Source: Hydrogenophaga sp. (GTDB taxonomy: Bacteria > Pseudomonadota > Gammaproteobacteria > Burkholderiales > Burkholderiaceae_C). From it: a DNA stretch of 16,060 nt. The stretch lies in the NCBI GenBank assembly GCA_030684755.1, contig JAUXXN010000051.1, positions 1-16,060 of the forward strand. The letters are read 5' to 3'. This document shows positions 1,740 through 16,060 of the stretch, piece by piece; position 1 is the first letter of the stretch, and the number at the start of each line of letters is the position of its first letter. The notes under the pieces were generated by a model. That model ran no database searches and was not told where the DNA came from. It saw only the letters and a program-made list of their open reading frames with translations. Position numbers and translations under genes: made by a program.

Positions 1740-1745
1740 TGGCGC

Positions 1746-1817: not shown

Positions 1818-2477
1818 TTACTTGGCGGGTGCTGCTTTTTCGTTTTCAGACGGTTTGGGCAACAGGCGCGCCAGTTCTTCCTCGCTGAGGATTTCCAGCA
1901 CCCGCACCACGCGCTGCACGCCCTGGGTGTTGCGGGTGATTTCGGTGGCGCGGTCGGCTTCGCGCTGGGTCAGAAGGCCCATCAGATACACCGTGCCCCG
2001 GGCTGTGACCACCTTGACAGACGACGCCGACAAGTCGCGCGCATCGATCATGGCGGCCTTCACACGACCGGTGACCAAGGTGTCTGAGGAACGCTGGGTG
2101 AGCGAAGAAACCCCCAACACCCCCAGCTCGTTGACGACACTGCGAACATTTTCAACGCCCGCCACCGTGCTTTCGACCAACGCCTTGTCCTGCTCGGTCG
2201 CCACCTCGCCAGTCAGCAATACCCGGCGGTTGTAGCTGGTGACATTGACGTTGCCGCGCTGGCCGATTTGGTCGCGCAGTCGGTTCGATGCGCGCAACTC
2301 AATGCCTTGGTCTTCCAACTGGGCACCCGAGGTGCGTCGGTCTGTGGCCACAAAGGCACTGGCCATGGCGCCGCCCACCACCAGAGGTGCGCAGGCCGAC
2401 AACGCTGCTCCGAACAACACAGCGGCCAAGGTGGTGGCAGCCACGCGGCTCCAGCGTGCGTGCTTCAACAGCTTCAT
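1818..2477 (-). CDS. dolP: DolP-like outer-membrane lipoprotein with two BON domains
   Basis: A 219-residue lipoprotein. The N-terminus has a basic start, a hydrophobic stretch and the lipobox LSAC with Cys29. The residue after Cys is Ala, not Asp, so sorting to the outer membrane is expected. Two BON domains follow at about residues 58-120 and 130-197, each with the family pattern (RRVLLTGEV; GTVYLMGLL). In E. coli, DolP (formerly YraP) maintains outer-membrane integrity and supports the BAM complex. The C-terminal ~20 residues are a charged Ala/Lys/Glu tail. The ATG overlaps the diaA stop as ATGA (2474-2477), and an AGGAG lies 8 bases upstream inside diaA, so the two are probably translationally coupled. 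The order yraN-diaA-dolP supports orthology with the E. coli genes. Confidence 0.9.
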   Translation of the reverse strand: MKLLKHARWSRVAATTLAAVLFGAALSACAPLVVGGAMASAFVATDRRTSGAQLEDQGIELRASNRLRDQIGQRGNVNVTSYNRRVLLTGEVATEQDKALVESTVAGVENVRSVVNELGVLGVSSLTQRSSDTLVTGRVKAAMIDARDLSASSVKVVTARGTVYLMGLLTQREADRATEITRNTQGVQRVVRVLEILSEEELARLLPKPSENEKAAPAK

Positions 2478-3094
2478 ACGGGGGTCTCCTGTTCATTGAT
2501 CACTGCGTCGGGCAGCCCCAGCAGCTGGGCGTCCACTCCGTCGCAAATACAGTGCAACACGATGTGATGCACCTCCAGAATACGGGCCGGCACGTCGTGG
2601 GGTACGCACACCAACACATCGGTGTCGCGCAGCATTTGCGCCAAGCGCCCACCACGCCCGCCCGTGAGCGCCAACACGGTCATGTCGCGCTCGTGCGCGG
2701 CTTCCACCGCTGCCAAAAGGTTGCCCGAGTTGCCGCTGGTCGAAAGCACCAGTAGCACGTCACCAGCCTGGCCCAGCGCGCGCACTTGGCGGGCGTAGAC
2801 GGCGCGGGCGTCAAAGTCGTTGGCAATGCCGGTCAGCACGGCGGCGTCGGCTGAGAGCGAAAACGCGGCCAGTTCGGGGCGCTCACGGTCGTAGCGGCCC
2901 ATGAAACTGGCGGCGAAATGCTGGGCTGAGGCAGCCGAGGCGCCGTTGCCGCAAGTCAGCACCTTGCCACCACCGGTGACGCTCACCAGCACCGCCGTGG
3001 TGGCCGCTTCGACCACCTGCGCAAGCGACTGCGCACACTGGTATTTCAGGTCGGCGCTGTCGATGAATTGTTGTTGTATTCGTTGCAAAAGCAT
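2474..3094 (-). CDS. diaA: DiaA-type SIS-domain protein (DnaA initiator-associating)
   Basis: A 206-residue protein of the SIS (sugar isomerase) fold. The phosphate-binding SIS motifs are CGNGASAASAQHF (residues 48-60) and STSGNSGN (118-125). It resembles the phosphoheptose isomerase GmhA, but the catalytic glutamate expected after HFA in GmhA (HFAEEL) is absent: here it reads HFAASF, as in E. coli DiaA (HFAASM). With its position between yraN and dolP this favours DiaA, which binds DnaA and promotes timely replication initiation, over an LPS heptose enzyme. The start at 3094 gives MLLQRIQQQF, matching the DiaA N-terminus. The frame is open further upstream to 3211, overlapping yraN, but that extension has no family character. 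The gene lies 28 bases downstream of yraN and overlaps dolP by 4 bases. Confidence 0.88.
   Translation of the reverse strand: MLLQRIQQQFIDSADLKYQCAQSLAQVVEAATTAVLVSVTGGGKVLTCGNGASAASAQHFAASFMGRYDRERPELAAFSLSADAAVLTGIANDFDARAVYARQVRALGQAGDVLLVLSTSGNSGNLLAAVEAAHERDMTVLALTGGRGGRLAQMLRDTDVLVCVPHDVPARILEVHHIVLHCICDGVDAQLLGLPDAVINEQETPV
2486..2490 (-). promoter_or_regulatory. Shine-Dalgarno of dolP inside the diaA 3' end
   Basis: On the minus strand AGGAG ends 8 bases before the dolP ATG (2475-2477). It lies within the last codons of diaA. Together with the ATGA stop/start overlap this points to termination-reinitiation coupling of the two genes. Confidence 0.75.
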
Positions 3095-3122
3095 GGGGCG
3101 ATCATAGCGGTCGGGGGTTGTG

Positions 3123-3563
3123 TCAAAAGCTAGCGGAAGCATCAAAGGCCGCACGCAGCCAGTCGATACGCACAGACTCTTGAATCTGGGCTGTCGGCTC
3201 CAAACGGCCATGGATCAGCACCGCATCAAACCGGCATGCAGGTTCCGATCCCAATCGCAGCAAAAAGTGCCGTGCTGCCAACACAATTCGCCGCTGTTTG
3301 TTGGGCGTGATGCTGGCGCCCGCGCCGCCCTGTCGGTTGCTGGCACGCTGGCGCACCTCCACAAACACCAGCGTGCCGTCGGGCTCGCGCATAATCAAAT
3401 CGACTTCGCCACCGCCCCGGCCCGGGGTCTTGAAATTGCGCCGCACCAGCACCAAGCCGTGGCGCTGCAAATGCGCCAATGCCATGTCTTCGGCGGCATC
3501 GCCCATGCCCTTGGTGGTGGGCCGGGTGGGCTCCGGCGCCCCCTGTTTTTTGGAAAACCACAT
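3123..3563 (-). CDS. yraN: YraN / UPF0102 family predicted endonuclease-like protein
   Basis: A 146-residue protein from the ATG at 3563 (an alternative in-frame ATG at 3581 adds six residues). The UPF0102 family has a Holliday-junction-resolvase-like restriction-endonuclease fold and no settled cellular role. Visible motifs are the family start GDAAEDMALAHL (residues 21-32), the Glu-X-Asp of GEVDLI (Glu53, Asp55) and FVEVRQR with Glu69. The family commonly has Arg where canonical PD-(D/E)XK nucleases have Lys. TPNKQRRIV (86-94) is the usual later signature. A GGAG lies 12 bases before the 3563 start, which is a long spacing, so the exact start is uncertain. It is the first gene of the minus-strand yraN-diaA-dolP unit and diverges from rsmI with no intergenic space, so its promoter must lie within rsmI coding sequence. 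Confidence 0.87.
   Translation of the reverse strand: MWFSKKQGAPEPTRPTTKGMGDAAEDMALAHLQRHGLVLVRRNFKTPGRGGGEVDLIMREPDGTLVFVEVRQRASNRQGGAGASITPNKQRRIVLAARHFLLRLGSEPACRFDAVLIHGRLEPTAQIQESVRIDWLRAAFDASASF
3552..3555 (+). promoter_or_regulatory. Shine-Dalgarno deciding the rsmI TTG start
   Basis: GGAA lies 7 bases before the TTG at 3563-3565. The next in-frame ATG (3644) would cut the protein at MVATPIGNL and remove the conserved GALY just before the first motif. The upstream ATG at 3479 would add a Trp/Pro-rich stretch unlike the family. The TTG is therefore the best-supported start. Confidence 0.55.
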
Positions 3564-4495
3564 TGTCTGCAAGCACTCCATCCCTGTTGGCCGCCGCACG
3601 CGAGGCGGCTGCTCACCAACATTATCCGCAGGGCGCGCTCTACATGGTCGCCACGCCCATCGGCAATTTGGCCGACATCGGGCTGCGCGCCTTGCAGGTG
3701 TTGTCGTTGGCCGACACCGTGGCCTGCGAGGACACGCGCCACACCGCTGGCCTGCTGCAAGGCTATGGGCTGCACAAGCCGCTGCTGGCACTGCACGAAC
3801 ACAACGAGGCCGAAGCCGCCCAAACCGTGGTGCAGCGCCTGCAAGCCGGCCAGCGCGTGGCCTATGTGAGCGACGCCGGCACCCCCGGCGTGAGCGACCC
3901 GGGCGCGCGCTTGGTGTCGGCGGTCACAGCGGCGGGTTTTCGCTGCGTGCCCATTCCGGGTGCCAGCAGCATCACCGCGCTGCTGAGCGTGGCGGGCTCA
4001 GGGCGCACAGGCGGCTGGGATGGCCGCTTTGTGTTTGCTGGTTTTTTGTCGCCCAAAGCCGCCGAGCGCCAACGCGAGGTGCAACACATCGCCGATGACG
4101 CCCGCGCCTGTGTGCTGCTGGAAGCGCCGCACCGCATCGAAGCGCTGGCCAAAGACCTGGCCGCTTTGGGCGCGCGCATGCTGACCGTGGGGCGCGAACT
4201 GACGAAGCAATTTGAAGAAGTGGCGCACCTGAGCGCCGAGGCATTTCCGGCCTGGTTGCAGGCCAACGCCCACCGCACACGCGGCGAATTTGTGTTGCTG
4301 GTCCACCCCAGTGCCGCCGAAAAAACCGAGGGCTGCGCACTGAACGCCGCCACCCAGCGCACGCTGAACCTCTTGCTGGCCGAGCTGCCGCTGAAAACCG
4401 CCGTGAAACTGTGTGCCGACATCACCGGCCAGCCGCGCAACACAATCTACGAAGCGGCCCTGGCCCAGCGCAAAAACCGGTCTGAAGAAGACTGA
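3563..4495 (+). CDS. rsmI: RsmI, 16S rRNA (cytidine-1402-2'-O)-methyltransferase
   Basis: A 310-residue SAM-dependent methyltransferase of the tetrapyrrole-methylase fold that 2'-O-methylates C1402 of 16S rRNA in the ribosomal P site. Motifs in order are VATPIGNL (29-36), CEDTRHT (55-61), the SAM-binding VSDAGTPGVSDPG (102-114), PGASSITAL (132-140), LLEAPHR (185-191) and GRELTKQFEE (210-219). The C-terminal small helical domain has LAELPLKTAVKL and the NTIYEAAL segment typical of the family. Length is close to the usual ~290 residues. The start is taken as TTG 3563 on the basis of the GGAA upstream and retention of the GALY lead-in. Divergence from yraN matches the general rsmI/yraN neighbourhood of proteobacteria. 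lpoA, which separates them in E. coli, is not present here. Confidence 0.92.
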   Translation: MSASTPSLLAAAREAAAHQHYPQGALYMVATPIGNLADIGLRALQVLSLADTVACEDTRHTAGLLQGYGLHKPLLALHEHNEAEAAQTVVQRLQAGQRVAYVSDAGTPGVSDPGARLVSAVTAAGFRCVPIPGASSITALLSVAGSGRTGGWDGRFVFAGFLSPKAAERQREVQHIADDARACVLLEAPHRIEALAKDLAALGARMLTVGRELTKQFEEVAHLSAEAFPAWLQANAHRTRGEFVLLVHPSAAEKTEGCALNAATQRTLNLLLAELPLKTAVKLCADITGQPRNTIYEAALAQRKNRSEED

Positions 4496-4540
4496 GCGCT
4501 GTCGCCAGCCACCTGCAGGCGCCCGGCACAGCGGCAGCTG

Positions 4541-4930
4541 TCAGGGAAGCCTCACGACGGGGTCGTTGCCCGAACGCGGCGCAGCACCCGGTGCTGTGGG
4601 CTCGGACACCTCGTGGGCTTGCACATCCACCACATCGCCCCGGTCGGTACCACGGTTGGAAAACGGCGAGGCCGAACCAGCGGGCCGCCCACCACCGGCA
4701 CGGCCGGGCCACACACCACCGGCGTAGCGCTGCGACGCCCGCCGGAAATGCTGAAACATGAGCACCGGCGTGGGCTTGCGCCCAGTCAACAGCGCCCACA
4801 ACGAAGACACCAGCACGACAACCAGCAGCGCCAGCAACAGGCTCAGCACAAAGATAGCCAGTGCCAGCCCAAACACCAGCTTGGTGATGCCGCTGACCAC
4901 GCGGCCGATAAAGTCCGTAAAACCATTCAT
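4541..4930 (-). CDS. Small single-span membrane protein, function unknown
   Basis: A 129-residue protein from the ATG at 4930. One long hydrophobic segment (about residues 17-49) follows a short amphipathic N-terminus, probably one inner-membrane helix or a tight hairpin. After it comes SSLWALLTGRKPTPVLMFQHFR (about residues 42-63 in all), which looks conserved in type. The rest is a Gly/Pro/Ser-rich hydrophilic tail ending with RGDVVDVQAHEV. I recognise it only as resembling hypothetical proteins near rsmI in Comamonadaceae, from memory and not from a search. Upstream in-frame codons (to 4987) give no plausible extension. It converges on rsmI with a 45-base gap and diverges from the exported protein at 5079. 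Confidence 0.7.
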   Translation of the reverse strand: MNGFTDFIGRVVSGITKLVFGLALAIFVLSLLLALLVVVLVSSLWALLTGRKPTPVLMFQHFRRASQRYAGGVWPGRAGGGRPAGSASPFSNRGTDRGDVVDVQAHEVSEPTAPGAAPRSGNDPVVRLP

Positions 4931-5014
4931 AGTGAGAAGAGCCCGACGGGCCAGTAGAGTTCCGCAAGCATCGGCACACGCGCCCAACCGATTTGCCCAA
5001 CAATAAGACAGCGC

Positions 5015-5051
5015 TTAAAAACCGCTTTTAACACATGGGGGCAGGCCCCCC
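5015..5051. promoter_or_regulatory. Divergent control region with two small inverted repeats
   Basis: The 148-base gap between the divergent genes (4931-5078) holds an A/T-rich inverted repeat TTAAAA (5015-5020) / TTTTAA (5026-5031) and a GGGGG (5037-5041) / CCCCC (5047-5051) hairpin. The hairpin begins 42 bases upstream of the ATG at 5079 and would lie in that gene's leader. I see no convincing -35/-10 pair. The function is inferred from placement only. Confidence 0.3.
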
Positions 5052-5078
5052 GCTTGCAAGCACCGTCTGGAAACCGCC

Positions 5079-5732
5079 ATGACTCTGACCCACCCGGAAG
5101 CCCCCACCCGGCGCCTTGCCGCCGCACTGCTGGCCTGCGCCATGCCGCTGGCCTCGCAGGCATTGGAACTGTCGGACGTGGCGCGTGAAGGCGAGCTGCG
5201 CTTTTTGGGCGAACGCCCCGACCCTGGTGCCTACCACTACGCCTCGCGGGTGGAAATCTCCCCAGACAGCCTCACCAGCGGCGTGGTGCAGATCACCACC
5301 TGCCACCATCAGCTGGACCCGAACGCCAAGATCGTCATCACGTTCAACCCGCAGCGGGTGCAACACATAGAAATGGCGTCCACCGAGGGTGTGGAACGCG
5401 CCCAGGTGCAGGATCACCGGGTGGAACTGACGCAGGTGCAGCGCGGCGGCAGCGCCTGCATCAACCTCACGTCCAAAGCGCTGGAGCGGGTGGACGACAC
5501 CACCTGGCGCCTGCACGCCGGGCCGTTGATGCGCCGCTACTTGGACGGCTACCTGCCCATGCAAGCCCGCTTGGCTTTTCACTGGCCCGAAGGCCTGTTG
5601 CAACTGCGCAGCACCGCACCGCAGGCGCAACCCGGTGTGGCGGTCAGCAGCAGCAGCAGCGGCGCAGCGCTGGACCTCGTGTTCGCCGGACGCATGACCG
5701 CCTCTCTGGATTTGGTGCGCGGCACGCCCTGA
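5079..5732 (+). CDS. Exported (periplasmic) protein of unknown function
   Basis: A 217-residue protein that I do not recognise. The N-terminus is a Sec-type signal peptide: Arg11-Arg12, a hydrophobic core (residues 13-26) and a likely cut after ASQA (about residue 28). The mature part is mixed alpha/beta in character with many short hydrophobic strands. It contains Cys75 and Cys127, which could form a disulfide in the periplasm, and a five-serine run (190-194). There is no lipobox, and the C-terminal end (ASLDLVRGTP) is not a typical outer-membrane beta-signal ending in Phe. GGAA ends 6 bases before the ATG. It is followed 97 bases later by the DUF502 gene on the same strand and may be co-transcribed with it. 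Confidence 0.75.
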   Translation: MTLTHPEAPTRRLAAALLACAMPLASQALELSDVAREGELRFLGERPDPGAYHYASRVEISPDSLTSGVVQITTCHHQLDPNAKIVITFNPQRVQHIEMASTEGVERAQVQDHRVELTQVQRGGSACINLTSKALERVDDTTWRLHAGPLMRRYLDGYLPMQARLAFHWPEGLLQLRSTAPQAQPGVAVSSSSSGAALDLVFAGRMTASLDLVRGTP

Positions 5733-5829
5733 TCGCTGGCCGCCAGCCTTGCCATGCAACCAGCATGCCCGGCTGCTATGCTGAGCAACAGTTGCGCGCA
5801 TTCGGCACGTAACTTTTTTACAGCGCTCC

Positions 5830-6453
5830 ATGAAACCGATTTACCAATACTTTTTTCGCGGTCTGATCACGTTTTTGCCCTTGGCATTGACGGTCTACGT
5901 GTTGTTTTTGTTCGTCACCTGGACCGAAGGCGTGGCCATGGCAATCATCCGGCCTGTGATTGGCGACTTCTACCTGCCAGGGCTGGGCATTCTGCTGGGC
6001 GCCGGACTGATTGTTGGGCTCGGTTTCTTCATTTCGCAGCCCTCTACTGCGCGCCTGCTGTCTTGGGTGGAACTTCCATTCACCAACTTGCCGGTGGTGA
6101 AAAGCATTTATTCGTCGTTAAAAAACTTTGCCGACTACTTCGCCCCGCACGAAAAAGACGCCCAACAGGTGGTGCTGCTGCGCATGCCCGGTGGTGAGCT
6201 GTCCATTGTGGGGCTGGTCACGCGCCAGTCCATGAAAGGCCTGGCGCGCGGGCTGAACGAACTGGAAGACCATGTGGCGGTGTACCTGCCCATGGGTTAC
6301 ATGATCGGCGGCTACACCGTGTTTGTCCCACGCAGCTGGACCACCCCCATCGACATGACGGTGGAAGAGGCCATGCGCTCGGCACTGATTGCGTTCATGT
6401 CGTCCAACCGCAGCGACAAAAACAGCGCGCCTGCCAGAGCATCAGAAAGCTAA
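5830..6453 (+). CDS. DUF502 family inner-membrane protein
   Basis: A 207-residue protein of the DUF502 family, which is widespread in bacteria and has no established biochemical role. Two membrane helices are visible at about residues 11-33 (GLITFLPLALTVYVLFLFV) and 51-70. The conserved loop after helix 2 reads NLPVVKSIYSSLKNF (86-100). It is followed by a soluble domain with the family segment YLPMGYMIGGYTVFVPRSW (152-170). The N-terminus beginning just before the first helix supports the ATG at 5830, although no good Shine-Dalgarno precedes it. The stop lies only 5 bases before the next ATG, so it is almost certainly co-transcribed with the PatZ-like gene. This gives an operon link between an uncharacterised membrane protein and acyl-CoA metabolism, but no mechanism. 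Confidence 0.85.
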   Translation: MKPIYQYFFRGLITFLPLALTVYVLFLFVTWTEGVAMAIIRPVIGDFYLPGLGILLGAGLIVGLGFFISQPSTARLLSWVELPFTNLPVVKSIYSSLKNFADYFAPHEKDAQQVVLLRMPGGELSIVGLVTRQSMKGLARGLNELEDHVAVYLPMGYMIGGYTVFVPRSWTTPIDMTVEEAMRSALIAFMSSNRSDKNSAPARASES

Positions 6454-6458
6454 CAGCC

Positions 6459-9182
6459 ATGAGCATTCGCCACCTCGACGCCCTGTTTGCCCCCGCCTCG
6501 GTGGCGGTTTTTGGTGCTTCCGAGCGCACCGGCAGCGTGGGTAGTACGGTGTGGCGCAACCTACAGGGCGACGGAAACAACAACGACAACCGCGCCAGCG
6601 GTTACCGTGGCCGACTCTACCCCGTCAACCCCAAACACAGCCAGCTGGGCGGCGTCACCGCCTACCGCAACGCAAAAGCTTTGCCCGAAGTGCCCGACCT
6701 GGCCGTGATCTGCACCCCCGCCCGCACCGTGGCGCCACTCATCGCTGCCATCGGTGCGCGCGGCACGCGGGCGGCCATTGTGGTCACCGCTGGCCTGGAC
6801 AACGCGCAAAAACAGGCCATGCTGGACGCCGCCCGGGTGCACACGCTGCGCATCCTCGGGCCCAACTGCATCGGCTTGCTGGTGCCCCACCTGGGCCTGA
6901 ACGCCAGCTTTGCCCACATCGGCGCCCTGCCGGGCGACCTGGCCTTTGTGTCGCAGTCAGGCGCGCTGGTCACGGCCATGCTCGACTGGGCGGGCTCGCG
7001 CGGCATCGGGTTTTCGCACTTCGTCTCGCTCGGCGAACGTGCCGACGTGGACTTTGGCGACATGCTCGACTTTTTGGGCAGCGACCCCAAAACCCGCTCC
7101 ATCCTGCTCTACATCGAAAGCATCGACGACGCGCCCAAATTCATGTCAGCAGCACGCGCCGCCGCCCGCAACAAGCCGGTGATCGTGGTCAAGGCCGGGC
7201 GCTCGGCCGCAGGCCAGCAGGCCGCCGCCTCGCACACCGGTGCGCTTGCGGGCTCCGACGCGGTGTTTGACGCGGCCATTGCCCGCGCCGGCATGCTGCG
7301 CGTGGACACGCTGCACGAGCTGTTTTTGGCCGCCGAAACGCTGTCGCGCTTTCGCGACGGCCCCAGCGGCCAGCTCATCGTGCTCACCAACGGCGGCGGT
7401 GCGGGCGTGATGGCCGCCGACGCTGCTGCGGCCAACGGCGTTCCCCTGGCCCCGCTGAACGACGCCTTGCTAGCCCGGCTGGACGCCGTGCTGCCCGCCA
7501 ACTGGTCGCACGCCAACCCGGTGGACATCATTGGCGACGCGCCCGCCGCGCGTTACCAGGCTGCGCTGGAAGCGCTGTCGCACGACACCGACAGCGCCGT
7601 GCTCTTCATTCACGCGCCCACCGCCATCGTGCCCAGCACCGAGATTGCACAGGCACTGCTGCCGCAAGTTACCGCGCAGCCCCGGCGCGTGCTGGGCTGC
7701 TGGCTGGGCGACAACGCCGTTGCCCAGGCCCGCCAGACCTTCCGCCAAGCCGGCGTTCCCGACTACAACACCCCCGAAGAAGCGGTGCGCGCCTTTTCCT
7801 TTCTGCGCACTTACCGCCTGCACCAAGAAGCGCTGCTGCAAACCCCACCCGCGCGCAGCGCCACTCAGCCGGTGGATCTGCCGCGCATCCGCGCCATCGT
7901 GGACGAGGTGCTCAGCAGCGGGCGCGAACTGCTGACAGAGCCCGAAGCCAAAGACTTTCTGGCCGCCGCCGGCCTGCCAGTGGTGCCCACGCGCACCGTC
8001 GGCCCCGACCCCACCGAAGCCGTGGCCGCCGCCGATGCCATGGGCTACCCCGTGGTGGCCAAAATTTTGTCGCACAACATCAGCCACAAGAGCGACGTGG
8101 GCGGCGTGCGCCTGAACATTGGCAGCGCCAACGAGCTGCGCGAGGTATGCACCAACATGCTGGCCCGCGTGCGCGAACTGCGGTCCGACGCCGACGTGCA
8201 AGGCTTCACCGTGCAGCCCATGGTGCGCAAAAAGCACGCCCACGAACTCATCATCGGCGCCAGCGTCGACCCCATTTTTGGCCCCGTGATCTTGTTTGGC
8301 GCGGGCGGCACGGCGGTGGAAGTGCTGGCTGACCGCGCACTCGCCCTGCCGCCGCTGAACACGCCGCTGGCGCTGGCGCAAATCAACCGCACCCGCATCG
8401 CCAAGCTGCTGCAAGGCTACCGCGACGAACCCGCCGCTGACATCGACGGCATTGCTCAGGTGCTGGTGGCCGTGTCGCAGCTGCTGGCCGATGTGCCCGA
8501 ACTCGCCGAGCTGGACATCAACCCCTTGCTGGCCAACCACGAAGGCGCTGTGGCGCTGGACGCCCGCGTGCGCGTGTCGGCCGCCTGCCCGGCGGGTGCC
8601 GCGCATTTTGCGATCCAGCCCTACCCGCAAGAGTTGGTGGAAACTTGGCACTGGAAAGACCACGTACTCACGCTGCGCCCCATCCGCCCCGAAGACGAAA
8701 TGCAGCACCGCGCTTTCTTGGAGAAACTGGACCCGGAAGACATTCGTATGCGTGTGTTTTACAGCCGCCGCACCATCGAGCACAGCGAACTCGCCCGCCT
8801 CACACAAATCGACTACGCCCGCGAAATGGCCTTCATTGCCACCCGGCCCCTGGCCGACGGAGGCGAAGAAACCTTGGGCGCGGTGCGAGCCACAGTGGAC
8901 CCGGACAACGAAACCGCCGAATTCGGCGTCATCGTACGTTCCGACCTGAAAGGCAGCGGCCTGGGCCGCAAGCTCATGGGCAACATGATCGAGCACCTGC
9001 GCGAACGTGGCACACAGCGCTTGGTGGGCACGGTGCTGCGCATCAACACCGGCATGCTGGAACTTGCACAGTCGCTGGGCTTCCAAGAACGCAGCAGCCC
9101 CAGCGACCCGGGTGACCACCAAGTGCGCTACGTCTCGCTGGAACTGCAAACCCAAACCAACGCCCAATCCCCCGCTGTTTGA
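6459..9182 (+). CDS. PatZ/YfiQ-type fusion: ADP-forming acyl-CoA synthetase plus GNAT acetyltransferase
   Basis: A 907-residue cytoplasmic protein. Domain order is: CoA-binding Rossmann domain (about 1-135), succinyl-CoA-ligase-like domains (about 140-460), ATP-grasp (about 488-715) and a C-terminal GNAT domain (about 740-900). This is the architecture of Pat/PatZ lysine acetyltransferases, which acetylate and silence acetyl-CoA synthetase. GNAT features are clear: the acetyl-CoA loop RSDLKGSGLGRKLM (827-840) and Glu821 in TAEFGV, matching the catalytic Glu of Salmonella Pat. Unlike E. coli PatZ as I recall it, where the ligase active site is degenerate, this protein keeps the phosphohistidine motif SHTGALAG (His259) of true ADP-forming acetyl-CoA synthetases. 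It may therefore be catalytically bifunctional, which is inference. Length is close to the ~890 of PatZ. It starts 5 bases after the DUF502 gene. Confidence 0.9.
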   Translation: MSIRHLDALFAPASVAVFGASERTGSVGSTVWRNLQGDGNNNDNRASGYRGRLYPVNPKHSQLGGVTAYRNAKALPEVPDLAVICTPARTVAPLIAAIGARGTRAAIVVTAGLDNAQKQAMLDAARVHTLRILGPNCIGLLVPHLGLNASFAHIGALPGDLAFVSQSGALVTAMLDWAGSRGIGFSHFVSLGERADVDFGDMLDFLGSDPKTRSILLYIESIDDAPKFMSAARAAARNKPVIVVKAGRSAAGQQAAASHTGALAGSDAVFDAAIARAGMLRVDTLHELFLAAETLSRFRDGPSGQLIVLTNGGGAGVMAADAAAANGVPLAPLNDALLARLDAVLPANWSHANPVDIIGDAPAARYQAALEALSHDTDSAVLFIHAPTAIVPSTEIAQALLPQVTAQPRRVLGCWLGDNAVAQARQTFRQAGVPDYNTPEEAVRAFSFLRTYRLHQEALLQTPPARSATQPVDLPRIRAIVDEVLSSGRELLTEPEAKDFLAAAGLPVVPTRTVGPDPTEAVAAADAMGYPVVAKILSHNISHKSDVGGVRLNIGSANELREVCTNMLARVRELRSDADVQGFTVQPMVRKKHAHELIIGASVDPIFGPVILFGAGGTAVEVLADRALALPPLNTPLALAQINRTRIAKLLQGYRDEPAADIDGIAQVLVAVSQLLADVPELAELDINPLLANHEGAVALDARVRVSAACPAGAAHFAIQPYPQELVETWHWKDHVLTLRPIRPEDEMQHRAFLEKLDPEDIRMRVFYSRRTIEHSELARLTQIDYAREMAFIATRPLADGGEETLGAVRATVDPDNETAEFGVIVRSDLKGSGLGRKLMGNMIEHLRERGTQRLVGTVLRINTGMLELAQSLGFQERSSPSDPGDHQVRYVSLELQTQTNAQSPAV

Positions 9183-9210
9183 ACCTGAACGGCAGCGGTG
9201 AACCCCATTG

Positions 9211-9216
9211 AAGGAG
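9211..9216 (+). promoter_or_regulatory. Strong Shine-Dalgarno of the dioxygenase-like gene
   Basis: AAGGAG with a 6-base spacer to the ATG at 9223. It selects this ATG over the in-frame TTG at 9208, which lies upstream of the Shine-Dalgarno. The gap to the preceding stop is only 40 bases, so the gene could be read from the same transcript as the PatZ-like gene. Confidence 0.8.
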
Positions 9217-9222
9217 ACCACC

Positions 9223-9861
9223 ATGCCAACCGTGCCCAGCCCCTCACGCCGCCACCTGCTCGTGGGCAGCGCCTCGGTGCTAGCAGCCACCGCCGCGCCA
9301 GCTTGGCTCACGCCCGCGCTGGCGCAATCGGCGCTGCGGCCCACCCCCAGCCAAACCGAAGGCCCGTTTTACCCCGTGGCCTTGCCCGCCGACAACGACT
9401 TTGACCTGCTGCGCAACGGCAACGCCACCTATGGCAAAGGCCAGCCGGCGTGGGTTGAAGGTGTGCTCACCGACACGCGCGGTGTGCCGGTTTCAGGCGC
9501 TGTGGTGCAAATCTGGCAGTGCGACCAGGCGGGCCACTACCACCACCCAGGCGACGGCGGCAAAGCCGACCCCGCCTTCCAGGGCTTCGGCCAAGTCACC
9601 GTGGGGCGCGATGGCCGCTACCGCTTCCGCACCCTGCGGCCCGCACCCTACAGCGGGCGCACGCCGCACATCCACGTCAAGGTGCGGCTGGACGGCCAAG
9701 ACCTGCTCACCACGCAGCTCTATGTGGCGGGCGACCCCGGCAACGAACGCGACTTTCTGTGGCGCCGCCTCAACGCCGAAGGCCGAGCCGCGCTCACCGT
9801 ACCGTTTGTGCCCGGAGCGGATGGCGCACGGGCCACGTTTCCCATCGTGGTGCAGGCTTAA
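9223..9861 (+). CDS. Tat-exported intradiol ring-cleavage dioxygenase-like protein
   Basis: A 212-residue protein of the protocatechuate 3,4-dioxygenase / intradiol dioxygenase fold, enzymes that cleave catechols between the two hydroxyls using non-haem Fe(III). All four expected iron ligands are visible: Tyr106 in WQCDQAGHYHH, Tyr143 in RPAPYSG, and His149 and His151 in TPHIHVKV. The N-terminus has a twin-arginine signal, SRRHLLVG (8-15), then a hydrophobic stretch and PALAQ (31-35) as a likely cleavage site, so the folded metalloprotein would be exported to the periplasm. TPSQTEGPFYP (41-51) is the usual start of this family's mature domain. The substrate is unknown and no other aromatic-degradation genes are nearby. 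The family also includes extracytoplasmic members of unproven activity. The start is fixed by AAGGAG. Confidence 0.88.
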   Translation: MPTVPSPSRRHLLVGSASVLAATAAPAWLTPALAQSALRPTPSQTEGPFYPVALPADNDFDLLRNGNATYGKGQPAWVEGVLTDTRGVPVSGAVVQIWQCDQAGHYHHPGDGGKADPAFQGFGQVTVGRDGRYRFRTLRPAPYSGRTPHIHVKVRLDGQDLLTTQLYVAGDPGNERDFLWRRLNAEGRAALTVPFVPGADGARATFPIVVQA

Positions 9862-9882
9862 GCACGATCCCCGCACGATCCC
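9862..9882. repeat. Tandem pair of GCACGATCCC
   Basis: The same 10-mer occurs at 9862-9871 and 9873-9882, directly after the dioxygenase stop codon, with a period of 11 bases (one helical turn). The rest of the 125-base gap to the next gene shows no clear promoter or terminator. It may be a chance or slippage duplication, or a pair of binding sites for the following gene. Confidence 0.5.
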
Positions 9883-9986
9883 GCGCGCTGCCTACGGCGG
9901 CATCCCGGGTGGAGGCACTTCAATCCGCAGGCACCACAATTCCCCCGCAACTTATGCAGTTTGCCTGCTGCCACTAAGCTCTTTGC

Positions 9987-11081
9987 ATGGATTCTTTAAC
10001 CCAAATCACCCTTGGTTCGGCGATCGGCGTGGCCGTGATGGGCCGACGCACCGCCGTGTGGAAAGCCGCCCTGTGGGGCGGCGTGGCCGGCACTTTGCCC
10101 GACCTCGATGCCTTCATCGACCACGGCGACGCCATCCTGAACATGACGCGTCACCGCGCTGAAAGCCATTCACTGCTGCTGCTCACGCTGGCATCGCCGC
10201 TGCTGGCCTGGGCGGTTTCGCGCATGGACGGCGAAGTGGTTGGGCTCCAGCGCCGGGCCGCCCCAAGCGGGAACAGCATCCCCTCAGGGGGCAGCGCCCT
10301 GCACGGCGGCACACCGCAGGCACCAACGTTCTTCTGGTGGTGGCTTGCGCTGTGGCTGGTGCTGTTCACCCACCCGCTGCTCGACACCATGACCATCTAC
10401 GGCACCCAGCTGCTGCAGCCGTTCACCGACCACCCCTTTGGCGTGGGCAGCATCTTCATCATCGACCCTCTCTACACCTTGCCGCTCATCGGGGGCGTGG
10501 TGGCCGCGCTGCGACTCAAGAGCGCGCGCGGCCTGCGCTGCAACTTGGCTGGCCTGGCCCTGAGCACGTTCTACCTTGCCTGGAGCTTCGGCGCCCAGCA
10601 ACACGCCACCCAAGTGGCCCGCGCTTCACTGGCCGAGCAAAACATCAACGCCCAAGGCCTGCTCGTCACGCCGTCGCCGTTCAACACCGTGCTCTGGCGC
10701 CTGGTAGCCACCACGCCCACGCAGTATTTTGAGGGCCATTACTCGCTGTTCGATAACAGCCAACGCATCACCTGGACCGCCCACGACCGGGGCGCAGAGC
10801 TGATAGAACAGCACCGCAGCGAGCCCTCGGTGGCCCGCATGGCCGCCTTCACCCACGGGTTTTACAGCCTGTCTGAGACCGATGGCCGCCTGTTCGTGAC
10901 CGATTTGCGCATGGGCCAAGAACCTGCCTACAACTTCCGCTTTGACTTGGGCAACACGCCCGCTCGCGTCAGTGGCCAACACCTGCCAACGCAGCAAAGC
11001 ATGCGCCCCGACCTGGGCACCGCGCTGCCCTGGCTGTGGCAGCGCATGTGGGGAAACGACGTTCCATTGCCCCGGATGTAG
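9987..11081 (+). CDS. YdjM-type (DUF457) membrane-bound metal-dependent hydrolase family protein
   Basis: A 364-residue membrane protein. The N-terminal family signature is present: MDSLTQITLGSAIGVAVMG, then GTLPDLDAF (Pro38, Asp39, Asp41), HRAESHSLLL (His56, His61), and THPLLDTMTIYGT with His129 and Asp133. These are putative metal ligands of the YdjM group, whose biochemical activity is largely inferred. Hydrophobic helices lie near 62-78, 115-130, 155-175 and 185-200, followed by a soluble C-terminal domain of about 150 residues. Residues about 86-113, between the first and second helices, are a Pro/Gly/Ser-rich insertion encoded by a palindromic repeat element (10242-10325) that keeps the frame open. 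No good Shine-Dalgarno precedes the ATG. It converges with the CopD-like gene across a 10-base gap. Confidence 0.8.
   Translation: MDSLTQITLGSAIGVAVMGRRTAVWKAALWGGVAGTLPDLDAFIDHGDAILNMTRHRAESHSLLLLTLASPLLAWAVSRMDGEVVGLQRRAAPSGNSIPSGGSALHGGTPQAPTFFWWWLALWLVLFTHPLLDTMTIYGTQLLQPFTDHPFGVGSIFIIDPLYTLPLIGGVVAALRLKSARGLRCNLAGLALSTFYLAWSFGAQQHATQVARASLAEQNINAQGLLVTPSPFNTVLWRLVATTPTQYFEGHYSLFDNSQRITWTAHDRGAELIEQHRSEPSVARMAAFTHGFYSLSETDGRLFVTDLRMGQEPAYNFRFDLGNTPARVSGQHLPTQQSMRPDLGTALPWLWQRMWGNDVPLPRM
10242..10325 (+). repeat. Comamonadaceae-type GC-rich palindromic repeat inserted in frame
   Basis: This stretch contains GCCGCCCCAAGCGGG and then CCCCTCAGGGG followed by GCAGCGC. That order resembles an intergenic repeat common in Comamonadaceae genomes, recalled from memory. 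It is 84 bases (28 codons) if the edges are placed where the protein changes from membrane-helix to Pro/Gly/Ser-rich sequence, so the host frame is preserved. The exact boundaries are approximate. Confidence 0.6.
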
Positions 11082-11091
11082 GGCACCCGCT

Positions 11092-11562
11092 TTAAGCCAT
11101 CAAAAACGTGATCGCAATGATCACCACGCCCAGCCCCAGGTTGATGCCCACCGCCGTGCGGATGCTGGCCAGTGCGGCGCCACCGGCAGACCAGTCGCTG
11201 GCGGCCACGGCTTTGCTCAGGCGCTTGAACAGGGCGAAGCGGATGTGGCCAAAAATCAGCATCATCACAATGCCCAGCGTGGCCATGATGGTCCAGTTCA
11301 GGGGCATGGCGAAGCCCAAGCCGGCCTGCACCGACTCTTTGGCCACGCGCCCGATCATCCACAAGCCGCTGGCCAGCACCACCCCAATGGCCACCAGCAC
11401 GGCCGCAAAAAAGCGTTGCAGCGTGGCGTGCATCAGGCGCACACGCACCGGGGCTTCAAGCTGCATGGCGGCTGGGCGAAGGAAGAAATGGGCAAACACC
11501 ATGCCGCCAATCCATACCACAAGGGCCAGGACGTGCAACAGTTTCAGGGTGGCGTAAATCAT
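11092..11562 (-). CDS. CopD-like four-helix integral membrane protein
   Basis: A 156-residue inner-membrane protein from the ATG at 11562, beginning MIYATLKLLHVLALVVWIGG. Four helices are visible at about residues 6-26, 53-72, 88-107 and 137-155. Histidines at 10 and 25 in helix 1, 45 before helix 2 and 106 in helix 3 could bind metal or haem, in the manner of the CopD/YebZ-like fold. Helix 1 with LHVLALVVWIGGMVFAHFFLRP is typical of small proteins annotated as the CopD family in Burkholderiales. A role in copper handling is not shown, and no copper genes lie alongside. Upstream in-frame codons to 11655 encode a non-membrane, unlikely extension. There is no clear Shine-Dalgarno. It lies downstream of and in line with the helicase, 114 bases away. 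Confidence 0.7.
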   Translation of the reverse strand: MIYATLKLLHVLALVVWIGGMVFAHFFLRPAAMQLEAPVRVRLMHATLQRFFAAVLVAIGVVLASGLWMIGRVAKESVQAGLGFAMPLNWTIMATLGIVMMLIFGHIRFALFKRLSKAVAASDWSAGGAALASIRTAVGINLGLGVVIIAITFLMA

Positions 11563-11676
11563 GTGGGGGGTTCTCGTTGAGGGTGGAACAGGGTTTTCAC
11601 ATCGCACGGGATGTGCGGCGAACCAGGAGGACCCGCACGCTTTCAAAACGTTCAACGGCGCAGCCCAACGGGTTGT

Positions 11677-14130
11677 TTAAGCGCTCACGTCCGACAGCAC
11701 GCCGTTCTGGCGGCGCTGCAACCGGTACGGTGGCAGGCCCTTGAGCATGCGCCGCCCGTAGCTCTGGCGCAGCAACCGGGCATCGTAGCAAACGACCACC
11801 GCTTCGTCGGTCTCGGCGCGGATGGCCCTACCCGTCCACTGCAATAGGCGCGCGCCGGTGGCGGGCACCACCAGTTCGCTGAACGGGTCGCGGCCCTGGC
11901 TTTTCAGCCAGTCGGCGCGGGCCTGGCCCACCGGGTCGCTGGGCGAGGCAAACGGCAACTTGGTGATAAACACCCATTCGCACAACTCGCCCGGCAAATC
12001 GAGCCCTTCGCCAAACGACTGCAGGCCAAACAAGATAGACGGGCTGCCTGCCGCCACGCGCTCGGCGTGTTTGCGCAGCAACTGGATGCGCGAGACGTCG
12101 CCCTGCACCAGCACCCGGCCGCGCAGATCGCTGTGCAGGCCGCGTTCGAGCAGCGCTTGCGCGCGCCGCATTTGCACCCGGGACGTGAACAGCACCAACG
12201 CCCCGCGCTGCACCTCGGCCAGGTCGGTCATCAGCACGTCGAGCATTTCGCGGGTGTAGGCCTCCACGTCTTTCGGGTCGGCCTCGGTTTGCACCACCAC
12301 CAGGCGGCCCTGGCGGGCGTGGTCGAACGGGCTTTGCACCTCGCGCGCCACCACCGCGTCGTCGTACGCCAGACCGGATTCGTGCAGAAAATGGTCAAAC
12401 CCGCCGCAGGTGACGAGCGAGGCCGACGTGACCACCGCCGCACGCACTTTGCTCCAGAGCTGGTTGCGCAGCAAGCTGCCGGGCTCCAGCGGGCAAGCGT
12501 GCGCGGTGAGGGTGACGAGCCCGTGGTTCAGGCCCGCTTGCAGCCATTTGGCCAGCGGCGGCTGCCGGGGTTGGTCGGGGTTGTTGGTCGCGGGCTCTTG
12601 CAGCCACAGCGTGGCGGTTTCTTGCGCGCTTTGCAGGCGCGGCGCCAACACGCCCAGGCGGCTGTAAAGCTTGGCACAGCGTGCGGCGTCGCCGGGGTTG
12701 TCGCGCGCGGTGGCCTTGAGCTGGGTGGCCAGCGTTTCAAACACCTTCAGCAGCGCGCTGGCGTTGGCCTGCAACCGGGCCACGGTTTCCAGCCAGTCGG
12801 GCGGCAGGGCACCGCCTTCAAAGCGGTCGGTCACCGAGGCCGCGCCGTCGCCCCAACCGCCGCCTGAGGCGCCCTTGGCTGCACCCGATCCCGCAGAACC
12901 GTTGGAGCCCGCTGCACCCGCTTTGCCCGCTGCGCCACCCGCCCAGCCACCGCGTGTGGCCGTGCGTGCCGGGGCTCGCCCGGTCAAGGTTTGCCAGTCA
13001 GGGTTGTCGCCCAGCCGCGCCATGGCCATGCGCGCCAGCTCGTTTTGGGCCGACTTCATCTCACGCGCCAGCGTGGCCACGTCGGCATTGGGCGTGTGCT
13101 GCATCGCGCCGGCCACCTCGTCCACCGCGCGCGGCAGGCGGTCGAGCCACTGGGTGCGCATCAGGTCCATCGACGCGGTGAACTGCCCCTGCGCCACCGC
13201 GCCCAGGTGGTGCGCTTCGTCAAACACCAGGTAACAGTCTTCGGGCGCGGGCAGCGCGTGCAGCCCCAGCGTGGCCAGCAGCAGGTCGTGGTTGACCACA
13301 ATCACCTGCGACTGCGCCAGCTTGGCCCGCGCCTGGTAATAGCTGCAGCTGTTGTAGCTGGGGCAGTGGCGCGCGGTGCAGCTGTGGCGCTCGGCCGCTA
13401 CCGGGCTCCACACCTCGCCCTCGGGCGGCTCGTCCAGGCGGTCGCGGTCACCGTCCCAGGCGCCGCTGTCGAGCTGGTGCGTCCACTGCATGTATTGCTT
13501 GGCGCTCTCGCTCCAGCGCTCGGCCGCCCGTGCGCTGGCCGCCGCCGTGGCCACCGTGTGCGCGGCCACGCCAGCGGCCGATTCGTCGGCTGCGGCGGGT
13601 GCGTCGTCGCTCTCAAACAGGTCGGCGCTGGCCGCGTCGCCACCGCTGAGCTGGTCCAGCTTCAGGCGGCACACATAGCGCCCGCGCCCCTTGGCCAGCG
13701 AAAACGTGAACGGCTCGGGCAGCGCCGCCGCCAGCGCCGGCAGGTCTTTGGCAATCAGCTGCTCTTGCAGCGCCACCGTGGCGGTGGAAATGACCACGCG
13801 CTTTTGCTGCGCCAGCGCCAGCGGAATCACAGTGGACGCATACGCCGCCGACTTGCCTACGCCCGTGCCAGCCTGCACCACCGCAATGCCGCGATCGGGC
13901 AAACCGGCCTCGCCACTGACCGAACCGTCGCCCAGGCTCACGCCACTGAGCGTGTGGGCGATGAGCGCAGCCATGTCACGCTGGCCGGGCCGCGCCCGAA
14001 AGCCGCTGGCGTGCGACACCATGTGGTCAAACGCGGCCAGCGCCAGCGCCTCGCGCGCCAGATGGCCAGAGGGCATGGCATCGGGCGCGGTGCCGTCGGT
14101 GTCGGCGTTGAATTCGGGGGTTTGGGACAT
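11677..14130 (-). CDS. DinG/YoaA-type ATP-dependent DNA helicase with 4Fe-4S cluster
   Basis: An 817-residue superfamily 2 helicase of the XPD/DinG group: 5'-3' unwinding in DNA repair and in resolving replication or R-loop obstacles. Walker A is AGTGVGKS (residues 87-94). The DEAH box is FDEAHH (Asp304-His307). Four cysteines (154 in YVCRL; 251, 256 and 262 in SCTARHCPSYNSC) are placed as the iron-sulfur ligands. Motif VI is QWTGRAIR (764-771). At about 700 residues expected, it is long because of a Gly/Ala/Ser-rich insertion at residues 384-433 (bases 12832-12981) and an Ala-rich stretch (about 165-205) within the iron-sulfur region. The start is the ATG at 14130 (MSQTPEF). An in-frame TTG at 14181 is possible but adds a Pro/His/Ser sequence with no family character. 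No strong Shine-Dalgarno is seen. It diverges from the Fic gene. Confidence 0.9.
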   Translation of the reverse strand: MSQTPEFNADTDGTAPDAMPSGHLAREALALAAFDHMVSHASGFRARPGQRDMAALIAHTLSGVSLGDGSVSGEAGLPDRGIAVVQAGTGVGKSAAYASTVIPLALAQQKRVVISTATVALQEQLIAKDLPALAAALPEPFTFSLAKGRGRYVCRLKLDQLSGGDAASADLFESDDAPAAADESAAGVAAHTVATAAASARAAERWSESAKQYMQWTHQLDSGAWDGDRDRLDEPPEGEVWSPVAAERHSCTARHCPSYNSCSYYQARAKLAQSQVIVVNHDLLLATLGLHALPAPEDCYLVFDEAHHLGAVAQGQFTASMDLMRTQWLDRLPRAVDEVAGAMQHTPNADVATLAREMKSAQNELARMAMARLGDNPDWQTLTGRAPARTATRGGWAGGAAGKAGAAGSNGSAGSGAAKGASGGGWGDGAASVTDRFEGGALPPDWLETVARLQANASALLKVFETLATQLKATARDNPGDAARCAKLYSRLGVLAPRLQSAQETATLWLQEPATNNPDQPRQPPLAKWLQAGLNHGLVTLTAHACPLEPGSLLRNQLWSKVRAAVVTSASLVTCGGFDHFLHESGLAYDDAVVAREVQSPFDHARQGRLVVVQTEADPKDVEAYTREMLDVLMTDLAEVQRGALVLFTSRVQMRRAQALLERGLHSDLRGRVLVQGDVSRIQLLRKHAERVAAGSPSILFGLQSFGEGLDLPGELCEWVFITKLPFASPSDPVGQARADWLKSQGRDPFSELVVPATGARLLQWTGRAIRAETDEAVVVCYDARLLRQSYGRRMLKGLPPYRLQRRQNGVLSDVSA

Positions 14131-14294
14131 GTAGGGCGGATGGCAGGGTGAACCAGAGGGGTGGACGCAGCTTGCGACCAAGTTCGAGCGCGCATTGTCC
14201 CAGACCCATCACCCGCACAACTGGTGCAACCAACCCCCTTCAGCCGCCCCACCCCCAGCGGGCACAAGGCGGCAACCGTTCCGTCCGACGGCAT

Positions 14295-14353
14295 TTGGCG
14301 CGATTCATGGCACCGCTGGCGCAATTTCAAGTTTTGCACCAAAATCGCGCCAA
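14295..14353. promoter_or_regulatory. Operator-like three-copy repeat upstream of the Fic gene
   Basis: A perfect 11-bp inverted repeat, TTGGCGCGATT (14295-14305) and AATCGCGCCAA (14343-14353), brackets a third, direct near-copy, TGGCGCAATT (14317-14326). The first and second copies are 21 bp apart, i.e. two helical turns on the same face. The sites end 22 bases before the ATG at 14376, where a repressor operator would be expected. The Fic protein's own N-terminal winged-helix domain is the natural candidate binder (inference). Confidence 0.55.
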
Positions 14354-14366
14354 TCATCTGTTAAAT
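14334..14366 (+). promoter_or_regulatory. Tentative promoter of the Fic gene
   Basis: TTGCAC (14334-14339) and TTAAAT (14361-14366, with TG just before it) are the only promoter-like pieces before the gene. The 21-base spacer is too long for a classical pair, so an extended -10 alone may serve. Transcription would then begin within a few bases of the ATG at 14376, which also lacks a Shine-Dalgarno, suggesting a leaderless or very short leader mRNA. Confidence 0.25.
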
Positions 14367-14375
14367 AGCACCCCC

Positions 14376-15764
14376 ATGAACAACGACACCGGCCTTTTGC
14401 AAAGCCTTCAAGCCAGCACCACCAGCCTGAGCCTAGCGCAGCTGCTGGCGTTGCATCCTGCGCTGCCGCGCCGCAGCGCGCAGCGCCAGTTGGCGCAGTG
14501 GGTGGCCGCTGGCTTGGTGCGGGCTGAGGGCCAGGCTCGGGCGCGCCGTTACCAGGTGTCCACGTTCGCGGCACCCGCCCCGACCACACCCGCCTTTGCG
14601 GTGCGTGAAACGGTGGCCGACCTGCTGGCTGGCAGCGTGGCCTTGTCGCCAGAGGGCCGGGAGATCCTGGCCTACATTGAGCAAGCGCCCACCGCGCGCA
14701 AGCCCGTGGGCTACCAAACCGACTTTTTGGCGGCCTACCAGCCCAACCAGACCCACTACCTGCCCGAAGCCCTGCGCAGGCATTTGCACCGCCTGGGCCG
14801 CACCCCACCGGGCCAGGCGCAAGAACCCGCTGGCACCTACAGCCGCGCCATCTTGAACCGCTTGTTAATCGACCTGTCATGGGCCTCCAGCCACCTGGAA
14901 GGCAACACCTACTCGCGCCTGGACACCCGCAAGCTGATCGAACACGGCACCGCCGCCAGCGGTAAGCCCGCCATAGAAACCCAGATGATCCTGAACCACA
15001 AGGCCGCTATCGAGTTTTTGGTGGGCAACATCGACAGCGTGGGCTTTGACCGCTACACCCTGCTCAACCTGCACAGCACCCTGGCCGAAAACCTGTTGCC
15101 CAACCCCGCCGACGAAGGCCGGGTGCGTCAGCACGCGGTGGACATTGGCTTGTCCGTTTACCGCCCCCTGTCGGCCCCCCAACAGATTGACCACCAGCTC
15201 AACCTGCTGCTGACCCAAGCCAGCCAGATTACCGACCCCTTTGAGCAATCGTTTTTCATGATGGTGCACCTGCCTTACCTGCAGCCCTTTGCCGACATCA
15301 ACAACCGCACCTCGCGGCTGGCGGCCAACCTGCCGCTGTTCAAGGCCAACCTCTGTCCGTTGACCTTTGTGGACGTGCCCGAGCCCGCTTACCGCAAGGC
15401 CGTGTTGGGCGTGTACGAAATGACGCGTGTCGAGCTGCTGCGCGACCTGTATGTGTGGGCCTACGAACGCTCCACGCAAGAGTATCTGGCCATCCGCCAG
15501 GAGCTCAGCGAACCCGACCCGCTGCGACTGGCCTGGCGCGACCTCATCAAAACCACCGTGCGCCAAGTGGTGCAACACCCCGAGCAGCACCCCACCAGCA
15601 CCATCGCACAAGCCGTCGCCGACAGCGTGCCCAGCTCTGAACGCGCCACCGTGCAAGCCCTCATCGAAGCCGAACTGCTCCGCCTGCACGAAGGCGTGCT
15701 GGCACGCTATGGACTGCGGCCTTCGGAATGGGTCGCTTGGCGGCGGGCGCAGGCGGGTGCTTGA
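14376..15764 (+). CDS. Fic-fold protein with N-terminal winged helix and altered active-site motif
   Basis: A 462-residue protein. Residues about 18-62 look like a winged helix-turn-helix (ALPRRSAQRQLAQWVAAGLV, then basic ARARRYQV), and a Fic domain follows (about 155-330). Typical Fic enzymes transfer AMP using the motif HPFx(D/E)GN(G/K)RxxR. Here it reads QPFADINNRTSR (303-314): the catalytic His is Gln303 and the first Gly is Ile308, while Phe305, Asp307, Asn309, Arg311 and Arg314 remain. The inhibitory-helix motif (S/T)xxxE(G/N) is present N-terminal to the domain as SSHLEG (171-176), so it is a class II arrangement. The C-terminal ~130 residues (ELLRDLYVWAYERS onward) resemble those of other large Fic proteins. 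The start at 14376 is preferred; an in-frame ATG at 14307 would overlap the operator repeats. Whether it modifies proteins, has different chemistry or acts mainly as a regulator is unknown. Confidence 0.85.
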   Translation: MNNDTGLLQSLQASTTSLSLAQLLALHPALPRRSAQRQLAQWVAAGLVRAEGQARARRYQVSTFAAPAPTTPAFAVRETVADLLAGSVALSPEGREILAYIEQAPTARKPVGYQTDFLAAYQPNQTHYLPEALRRHLHRLGRTPPGQAQEPAGTYSRAILNRLLIDLSWASSHLEGNTYSRLDTRKLIEHGTAASGKPAIETQMILNHKAAIEFLVGNIDSVGFDRYTLLNLHSTLAENLLPNPADEGRVRQHAVDIGLSVYRPLSAPQQIDHQLNLLLTQASQITDPFEQSFFMMVHLPYLQPFADINNRTSRLAANLPLFKANLCPLTFVDVPEPAYRKAVLGVYEMTRVELLRDLYVWAYERSTQEYLAIRQELSEPDPLRLAWRDLIKTTVRQVVQHPEQHPTSTIAQAVADSVPSSERATVQALIEAELLRLHEGVLARYGLRPSEWVAWRRAQAGA

Positions 15765-15769
15765 AGAAT

Positions 15770-16060
15770 TCAGGACATGAAACCACCGCTCAAGGCTTCT
15801 CTTCGTTGCGTGGTCAGATGCGCCCCATCCAGGTACTGGGCCAGAATTTCAAGGTCTGCCGCGCAAACACCCATGTCCTGAAACAACGACTTCCACTGCG
15901 CCACCTGCTGCGCTATATGTGCGGCCATGCGGCGTGCGCTGGCGGCGCTCAAACCAAACGCGCTGGCCTCTGACAAGACGTTGGCCAGACTGGCGTCGTG
16001 GCCTTGCTGGCCCACGCGCATTTGCTGGTAGCCCAGGCCTTGTGCGGCGGGCAGCACGTC
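15770..16060 (-). CDS. HipA-family kinase, C-terminal end (5' part outside window)
   Basis: Partial: 96 codons plus stop, with the frame open through base 16060. The visible part reads DVLPAAQGLGYQQMRVG, then LANVLSEASAFGLS, an amphipathic helix (RRMAAHIAQQVAQWKSLFQ) and AQYLDGAHLTTQRREAL. This matches the helical C-terminus of HipA-like Ser/Thr kinases (type II toxin-antitoxin HipA family, phosphorylating targets such as glutamyl-tRNA synthetase in E. coli). The kinase catalytic residues lie outside the window, so activity cannot be judged. The gene runs tail-to-tail with the Fic gene, with 5 bases between stop codons. A HipB-type HTH antitoxin would be expected upstream, beyond the right edge. 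Confidence 0.78.
   Translation of the reverse strand, partial: DVLPAAQGLGYQQMRVGQQGHDASLANVLSEASAFGLSAASARRMAAHIAQQVAQWKSLFQDMGVCAADLEILAQYLDGAHLTTQRREALSGGFMS

Follow-up and report, generated by a model that had tools for sequence, protein, structure and literature searches.

In the Fic motif HPFx(D/E)GN(G/K)R, the histidine acts as the base for activation of the hydroxyl group on the target. Replacement of this residue by glutamine is itself not new, since a bacterial-only Doc/Fic clade of 45 sequences (clade D2), with Gln for the catalytic His and the motif Qx[FY]x[DE][GV]NKR, was published in 2015 by Khater and Mohanty, who left its function open and argued that its members might still be functional (PMC4454073). 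A second relevant system is CccR of Yersinia pseudotuberculosis, whose helix-turn-helix (HTH) domain binds to inverted repeats close to the -35 and -10 elements of its own promoter and acts as a repressor; an H192A variant still represses while toxicity and AMPylation are abolished, so that repression is independent of the catalytic His (PMC9755527). Here we describe a Fic gene with this Gln substitution (hereafter Gln-Fic) in a stretch of 16,060 nucleotides from Hydrogenophaga sp. (assembly GCA_030684755.1, contig JAUXXN010000051.1, positions 1 to 16,060 of the forward strand), referred to as the window. We consider it reasonably probable that its product is a solitary, self-repressing Fic protein that retains its nucleotide pocket but is crippled for canonical AMPylation, with the Fic module serving as a nucleotide-gated effector. 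What this locus and its relatives add to the known substitution is a predicted winged helix, operator arrays and an apparently private self-regulation. The relevant parts of the gene are:

14376 to 15764, forward strand: Gln-Fic gene encoding 462 amino acids (aa), with an N-terminal winged helix, a class II Fic domain and C-terminal helices (open reading frame translation, Pfam, AlphaFold2)
14376 to 14558, forward strand: predicted winged helix-turn-helix, residues 1-61 (helices 3-13, 20-26 and 32-45, strands 48-51 and 58-61; AlphaFold2)
14469 to 14510, forward strand: putative recognition helix, residues 32-45 (RRSAQR...; model helix and operator-similarity analysis)
14886 to 14903, forward strand: inhibitory motif SSHLEG, residues 171-176 (translation, alignment, model)
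15282 to 15317, forward strand: Fic motif QPFADINNRTSR, residues 303-314, with the Gln303 codon at 15282-15284 (translation, alignment to FICD)
15303 to 15305, forward strand: codon 310, Asn for Lys (alignment)

Both motifs read in translation as the first-pass annotation had given them, and the Pfam Fic model (PF02661) matches residues 224-320 with an E-value of 9.2e-11 and a score of 42.9 bits (cut-off 24), placing the protein in the Fic/Doc family and its fold. Gln303 aligns with the catalytic His of HPFIDGNGRTSR in FICD in both pairwise and profile alignments. SSHLEG, which ends helix 160-173, has the (S/T)xxxE(G/N) form and the position N-terminal to the Fic core that define class II Fic proteins. 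The N-terminal winged helix, also proposed at first pass, is predicted with confidence: AlphaFold2 models of the whole 462-aa protein and of this domain alone gave mean predicted local distance difference test scores of 91.7 and 84.4, respectively, and structure matches to the domain model were mostly winged-helix proteins.

The glutamine is a trait of a subfamily rather than of a lone mutant, as had been suggested at first pass, because it occupies the catalytic position in 361/361 proteins and 80/80 genomic loci. The proteins comprise the window copy and three best-scoring lists (the best 120 of 8000, 8000 and 405 matches), two of them seeded with distant members and contributing 240 proteins; 359 were recognized by motif pattern and two by eye, one of which continues with foreign sequence after QPFADG while the other reads QPFDDVNKGVSR. 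The loci are the best 80 of 576, of which 79 were assigned by pattern and one (L023, QPFADINKQTSR) by translation. These counts rule out a sequencing error or a single decay event at Gln303. Gln members reach about 30% identity and include Bacteroidota; plasmid relatives at 30-40% identity also carry Gln, and His-bearing proteins in the same search appeared only at about 24-31%, so that no close homologue with His, the first-pass annotation's own refuting case, was found among the matches listed. In the alignment of the window protein with its best 120 relatives, Q303, P304, F305, N309, R311, S313 and R314, as well as S171, S172, L174 and E175 of the inhibitory motif, are present in 121/121 and D307 in 118/121. 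His298, five residues before Gln303 on the preceding model helix 288-302, had been named as a possible substitute base; it is not conserved, being Gln in six and Arg in one of the 121 proteins and Asn in L011.

Across 79 diverse members, R108, P123, S171, S172, E175, G176, N207, H233, R251, Y301, Q303, F305, N309, R311, R314, Y347 and E348 are invariant. Position 308, Ile in the window, varies (I, V, C, M, A, S), with Gly occupying it in Bacteroidota, L123 and the L011/L120/L121/L178 group. The Gln303 codon itself varies synonymously (CAG 60, CAA 19), so Gln has been kept although His is one base change away. A tree was built from 58 Gln and 41 His rows (99 rows, 96 different, with one very long His row, L149, and His rows taken mostly from best-scoring matches) after removal of the column for position 303; in it, all Gln rows fall on one side of a single branch, with weak support (63). 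On the Gln side also lie L116 and L118, distant and shorter Fic proteins with QFFWD[GV]NKR. The genome of the window (G000) holds five further Fic matches (L001-L003, L005 and L006), two in short open frames, all reading HPF..GNGR; among its Fic matches, Gln occurs only in the 14376..15764 copy.

The second line of evidence lies upstream of the gene, where the 150 base pairs (bp) before the start codon contain an array of half-sites related to the consensus of its clade, TGGCGC[AG][GA]TT (10 bp):

14296 to 14305, forward strand: operator half-site TGGCGCGATT, inside an 11-bp perfect inverted repeat (14295-14305/14343-14353; sequence)
14317 to 14326, forward strand: operator half-site TGGCGCAATT (sequence)
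14336 to 14341, reverse strand: degenerate half-site core GCACCA, which reads GCGCCA in the 98%-identical locus L015 (sequence)
14340 to 14345, forward strand: -10-like CAAAAT between half-sites (by eye)
14343 to 14352, reverse strand: operator half-site, reading AATCGCGCCA on the forward strand (sequence)

The array occupies the gap between the Fic gene and a divergent helicase gene (11677-14181, reverse strand; Helicase_C_2 and DEAD_2, DinG/XPD-like by domains). A -10-like NAAT lies between half-sites (GCRCCA-NAAT-NGC) in 43/65 loci.

Loci of the same clade in unrelated surroundings carry up to six exact cores upstream, often near -107, -86, -65, -46, -35 and -14 from the start (as listed for 40 of 66 loci), and the commonest distances between adjacent half-sites are 11, 19 and 21 bp. 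The mean number of cores per 150 bp is 4.65 in 66 loci, compared with 0.27 in shuffled sequences and 0.30 in 811 other upstream regions, and at least two cores occur in 65/66 loci versus 46/811 controls. Among distant loci only 7/14 have at least two, as their tblastn matches start within the coding sequence. A motif-blind repeat score that tolerates mismatches gave the same contrast: at least 3 in 67/69 non-redundant Gln-Fic genes, 72/357 neighbouring genes and 11/40 His-Fic genes (first-ATG starts, possibly wrong for some of the latter), and at least 4 in 58/69, 13/357 and 3/40, respectively; the window itself scored 3. The exact 7-mer statistic that this score replaced, with redundant loci included, reached at least 3 in 86/122 versus 74/665 and at least 4 in 44/122 versus 21/665. 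Reduction for redundancy took 104 proteins to 75; four loci with misassigned start codons (L045, L049, L079 and L088, in which half-sites are visible with an alternative start) were omitted from the helix/operator analysis, leaving 71 (70 in the Mantel test), and two more (L080 and, because its upstream region is short, L086) from the repeat scores, leaving 69.

The repeated word differs by locus, being GGCCGTAT in L119, TGGCCTAAT in L104, AATCAGCTC in L120, AATCTT[AG]TC in L121, TGTCC-type in L164 and L166, TGTCGC in L086, L091 and L094, and TTGCGC-type in the group with the helix RRTLQY; array types that differ between subclades include TGGCGC, TTGCGC, TGGCCGTAT and AATCTTGTCA. By sequence comparison, the operator appears to go with the recognition helix between subclades. 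After removal of Fic similarity, segments starting at residues 25 and 29 best explain operator similarity (partial correlation 0.24), the best segment elsewhere in the protein reaching 0.195 at residue 296. One genome (G263) encodes two Gln-Fic paralogues, L101 and L119, which differ in both recognition helix and operator array.

In the genome of the window (83% complete), the exact paired operator occurs at the fic promoter only; it was also found in 13 of 15 further genomes, every match lying at the fic promoter by coordinates, and the reversed pair had no match in the same 15. The DNA-binding domain very probably represses its own gene by way of a private upstream array. In the mechanism that we favour, the winged helix would bind TGGCGC-type half-sites over its own promoter and keep the gene low, a step well supported by comparison and paralleled by the self-repression of CccR. 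The Fic module most likely still binds nucleotide under the control of the SSHLEG helix, because the phosphate-binding residues and the inhibitory Glu are kept, and canonical AMPylation would be absent or very weak because Gln303 replaces the base. Because the gene's own promoter is the one place where the paired operator turned up, the benefit under selection probably lies in the Fic module and not in a regulon; the module may be a nucleotide-gated effector, perhaps of the toxin or defence kind, that is released when repression fails. The first-pass suggestion of a nucleotide-sensing transcription regulator is therefore retained in part: DNA binding at the gene's own promoter is strongly favoured by comparison, but a regulator in the usual sense is doubtful because nothing was found for a wider regulon.

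Several points weigh against this reading. TTGCGC-type arrays occur in 7/7 loci with Tyr37 and 0/64 with Arg37 (window numbering), and TGGCGC at least twice in 0/7 and 49/64, but the TTGCGC pattern was picked after the loci were seen and the seven Tyr37 loci are related, not independent. Operator similarity tracks Fic relatedness (partial 0.52) more strongly than the helix (partial 0.19; 4/2000 permutations). Spacing periodicity is 0.72-0.74 for all periods from 9.5 to 10.5 bp, so that the 10.5-bp turn of DNA is not singled out, and a scan of the window for consensus sigma-70 promoters found no site. Two of the 15 genomes have no exact paired match even at fic, and a looser pattern searched in 20 genomes matched eight places off fic (nine strand matches, one in the window's own genome) against six strand matches for the control; none of the eight has a full half-site on both arms. 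The regulon searches used pairs of set form, which other arrangements would escape, and nucleotide binding enters the reading as a deduction from conserved residues. Finally, the window copy may itself be weakened, with its degenerate half-site and Asn310. This residue is private to the window copy, Lys standing in the other 120 aligned proteins and in L015, and may be an error or private decay; K310N, in the near-invariant NKR, is among ten residue differences from L015, and the nonsynonymous and synonymous divergences between the two copies (dN 0.011, dS 0.096; dN/dS about 0.11) indicate purifying selection.

Gln-Fic is a one-gene accessory unit of patchy occurrence and appears to be mobile. 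In its phylum, 23/299 genomes (including that of the window) matched at an E-value of 1e-5, several through His-Fic proteins; in its genus, 3/35 other genomes gave a match (31-53% identity), which in two of them was partial. Plasmids gave matches in 59/72,556 records, 19 over 80% of the length, with an integrase/recombinase or insertion sequence transposase gene in 8/13 annotated stretches, and phage genomes gave two distant matches in 50,697 records. Viral contigs yielded 12 loci, 11 with query A1 and one with query P0130. Seen after the operator pattern was set, 10/12 scored at least 3 (L183-L185 sharing one upstream region), L187 scored 2 and L190 gave no start. In agreement with the pattern, L189, with RRTLQY, has TTGCGC sites; L183-L185, whose helix is as in L086/L091/L094, have TGTCGC-type sites. 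In Bacteroidota, the plasmid copy L127 lacks its 5' end, and L179 reached a repeat score of 3, as do a fifth of controls.

No conserved neighbour emerged, the largest neighbour cluster covering 5/77 loci among genes of at least 70 aa, and no Pfam family occurred in more than three of 93 adjacent proteins (from 119 adjacent open reading frames; genes of at least 90 aa). An antitoxin or operon partner of the FicTA or Phd-Doc type was considered and rejected, none recurring in the 77 loci or the 93 proteins. Hist_deacetyl was found in three neighbours, consistent with a cluster at position +1 in three loci. PADLOC matches among the 93 proteins were scattered (mad2 and mad3 with three members each and AAA ATPase models with two, among the 25 of 198 families listed), and because of this scatter and the lack of a control set we make no claim of a defence island. 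Convergent with the Fic gene, the window contains the C-terminal end of a HipA-like kinase (15770-16060, reverse strand), which is whole in L015 (9398-10642; HipA_C E-value 4.3e-46); two plasmids (L172 and L175) likewise carry HipA genes close to Gln-Fic genes, though this is not general.

The alternative that survives best, which we regard as possible but tentative, retains autoregulation and makes the protein an active enzyme in which Gln303 and the pocket (N207, H233, R251, Y301 and E348) catalyse a different reaction with nucleotides, for example taking AMP off proteins, Doc-like phosphotransfer or a transfer needing no strong base. Such chemistry would account for the retention of Gln one base change from His and for the invariant residues outside the motif in the 79 diverse members. 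It also fits the NKR ending, which is of Doc type, and the argument of the 2015 authors for a living clade (PMC4454073), as well as Glu175, the counterpart of the conserved Glu of FICD said to support deAMPylation (PMC6408439). Against it, no activity was found in the open-access literature for any member, and loss of the His abolished toxicity and AMPylation in CccR (PMC9755527). A Fic part acting as a ligand-gated effector without catalysis is somewhat more likely than an enzyme of other chemistry. A bolder version, which we think rather unlikely, would see selfish or defence elements of one gene that cross phyla, with Gln as a functional residue in a novel Fic chemistry and with each lineage having evolved its own winged helix and array, as in phage immunity repressors; if true, lineage-private repressor/array pairs would let several copies share one cell without cross-repression. 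It is improbable that the protein is purely a pseudoenzyme regulator whose Fic domain senses nucleotide and switches DNA binding at further targets that our searches missed: the winged helix, the conserved pocket and the loss of the base in all 361 proteins would suit it, but the exact paired operator lies only at the gene's own promoter in the genomes where it was found, and the looser pattern came close to its control. A decaying toxin carried as an inactive passenger of mobile elements would explain the patchy occurrence, the plasmid copies and the K310N and half-site damage of the window copy, yet it is scarcely credible given the strong conservation of the subfamily, the low dN/dS between near copies and the arrays in nearly all subclades examined.

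The preferred reading, of a self-repressing Fic protein with a nucleotide-gated module, can be set against the known systems. FICD/HYPE is an animal protein that has the catalytic His and no winged helix in its matched chains. The phage-defence protein Sofic is a mobile Fic gene of the toxin or defence kind, as the window gene may be, but it is said to AMPylate targets and is counteracted by a 47-aa neighbour (PMC12249575). The PADLOC SoFic model matches only the Fic part of the window protein (residues 156-327; E-value 2.9e-11), and the catalytic His of that type is absent. In CbFic2 of Coxiella burnetii (PDB 8cil) and SoFic of Shewanella (3eqx, 3zcn), the winged helix is C-terminal and a DUF4172 domain N-terminal; CbFic2, unlike the window protein, has the motif HPFDDGNGRIGR and AMPylation activity, and its DNA binding can alter enzyme activity, while the available text reports DNA binding of SoFic as not shown (PMC10628234). 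Clade D2 shares the Gln, but its members are described as usually single-domain, and the available text names no winged helix, operator or autoregulation (PMC4454073); judged by the published motif alone, many relatives fit it, and the window copy deviates at Ile308 and Asn310. The open-access literature, which leaves most subscription papers outside, yielded no publication on either the operator arrays or the activity of Gln-Fic proteins. The arrays offer a handle on a clade left in 2015 as a question of dead or different (PMC4454073), each member having a predicted private promoter switch that could be used to seek its inducer. The window protein resembles CccR in that a Fic domain is joined to an HTH, here a predicted one, and that the promoter of the gene carries inverted repeats, and it differs from CccR in its N-terminal winged helix and its Gln; in CccR the HTH is C-terminal to the Fic domain, the His is present, FtsZ is AMPylated and the operator consists of two 10-bp boxes 26 bp apart (PMC9755527). 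The Gln-Fic proteins would widen the CccR precedent to a family of broad distribution, in which paired changes of helix and operator provide a natural data set for the rules of DNA recognition.
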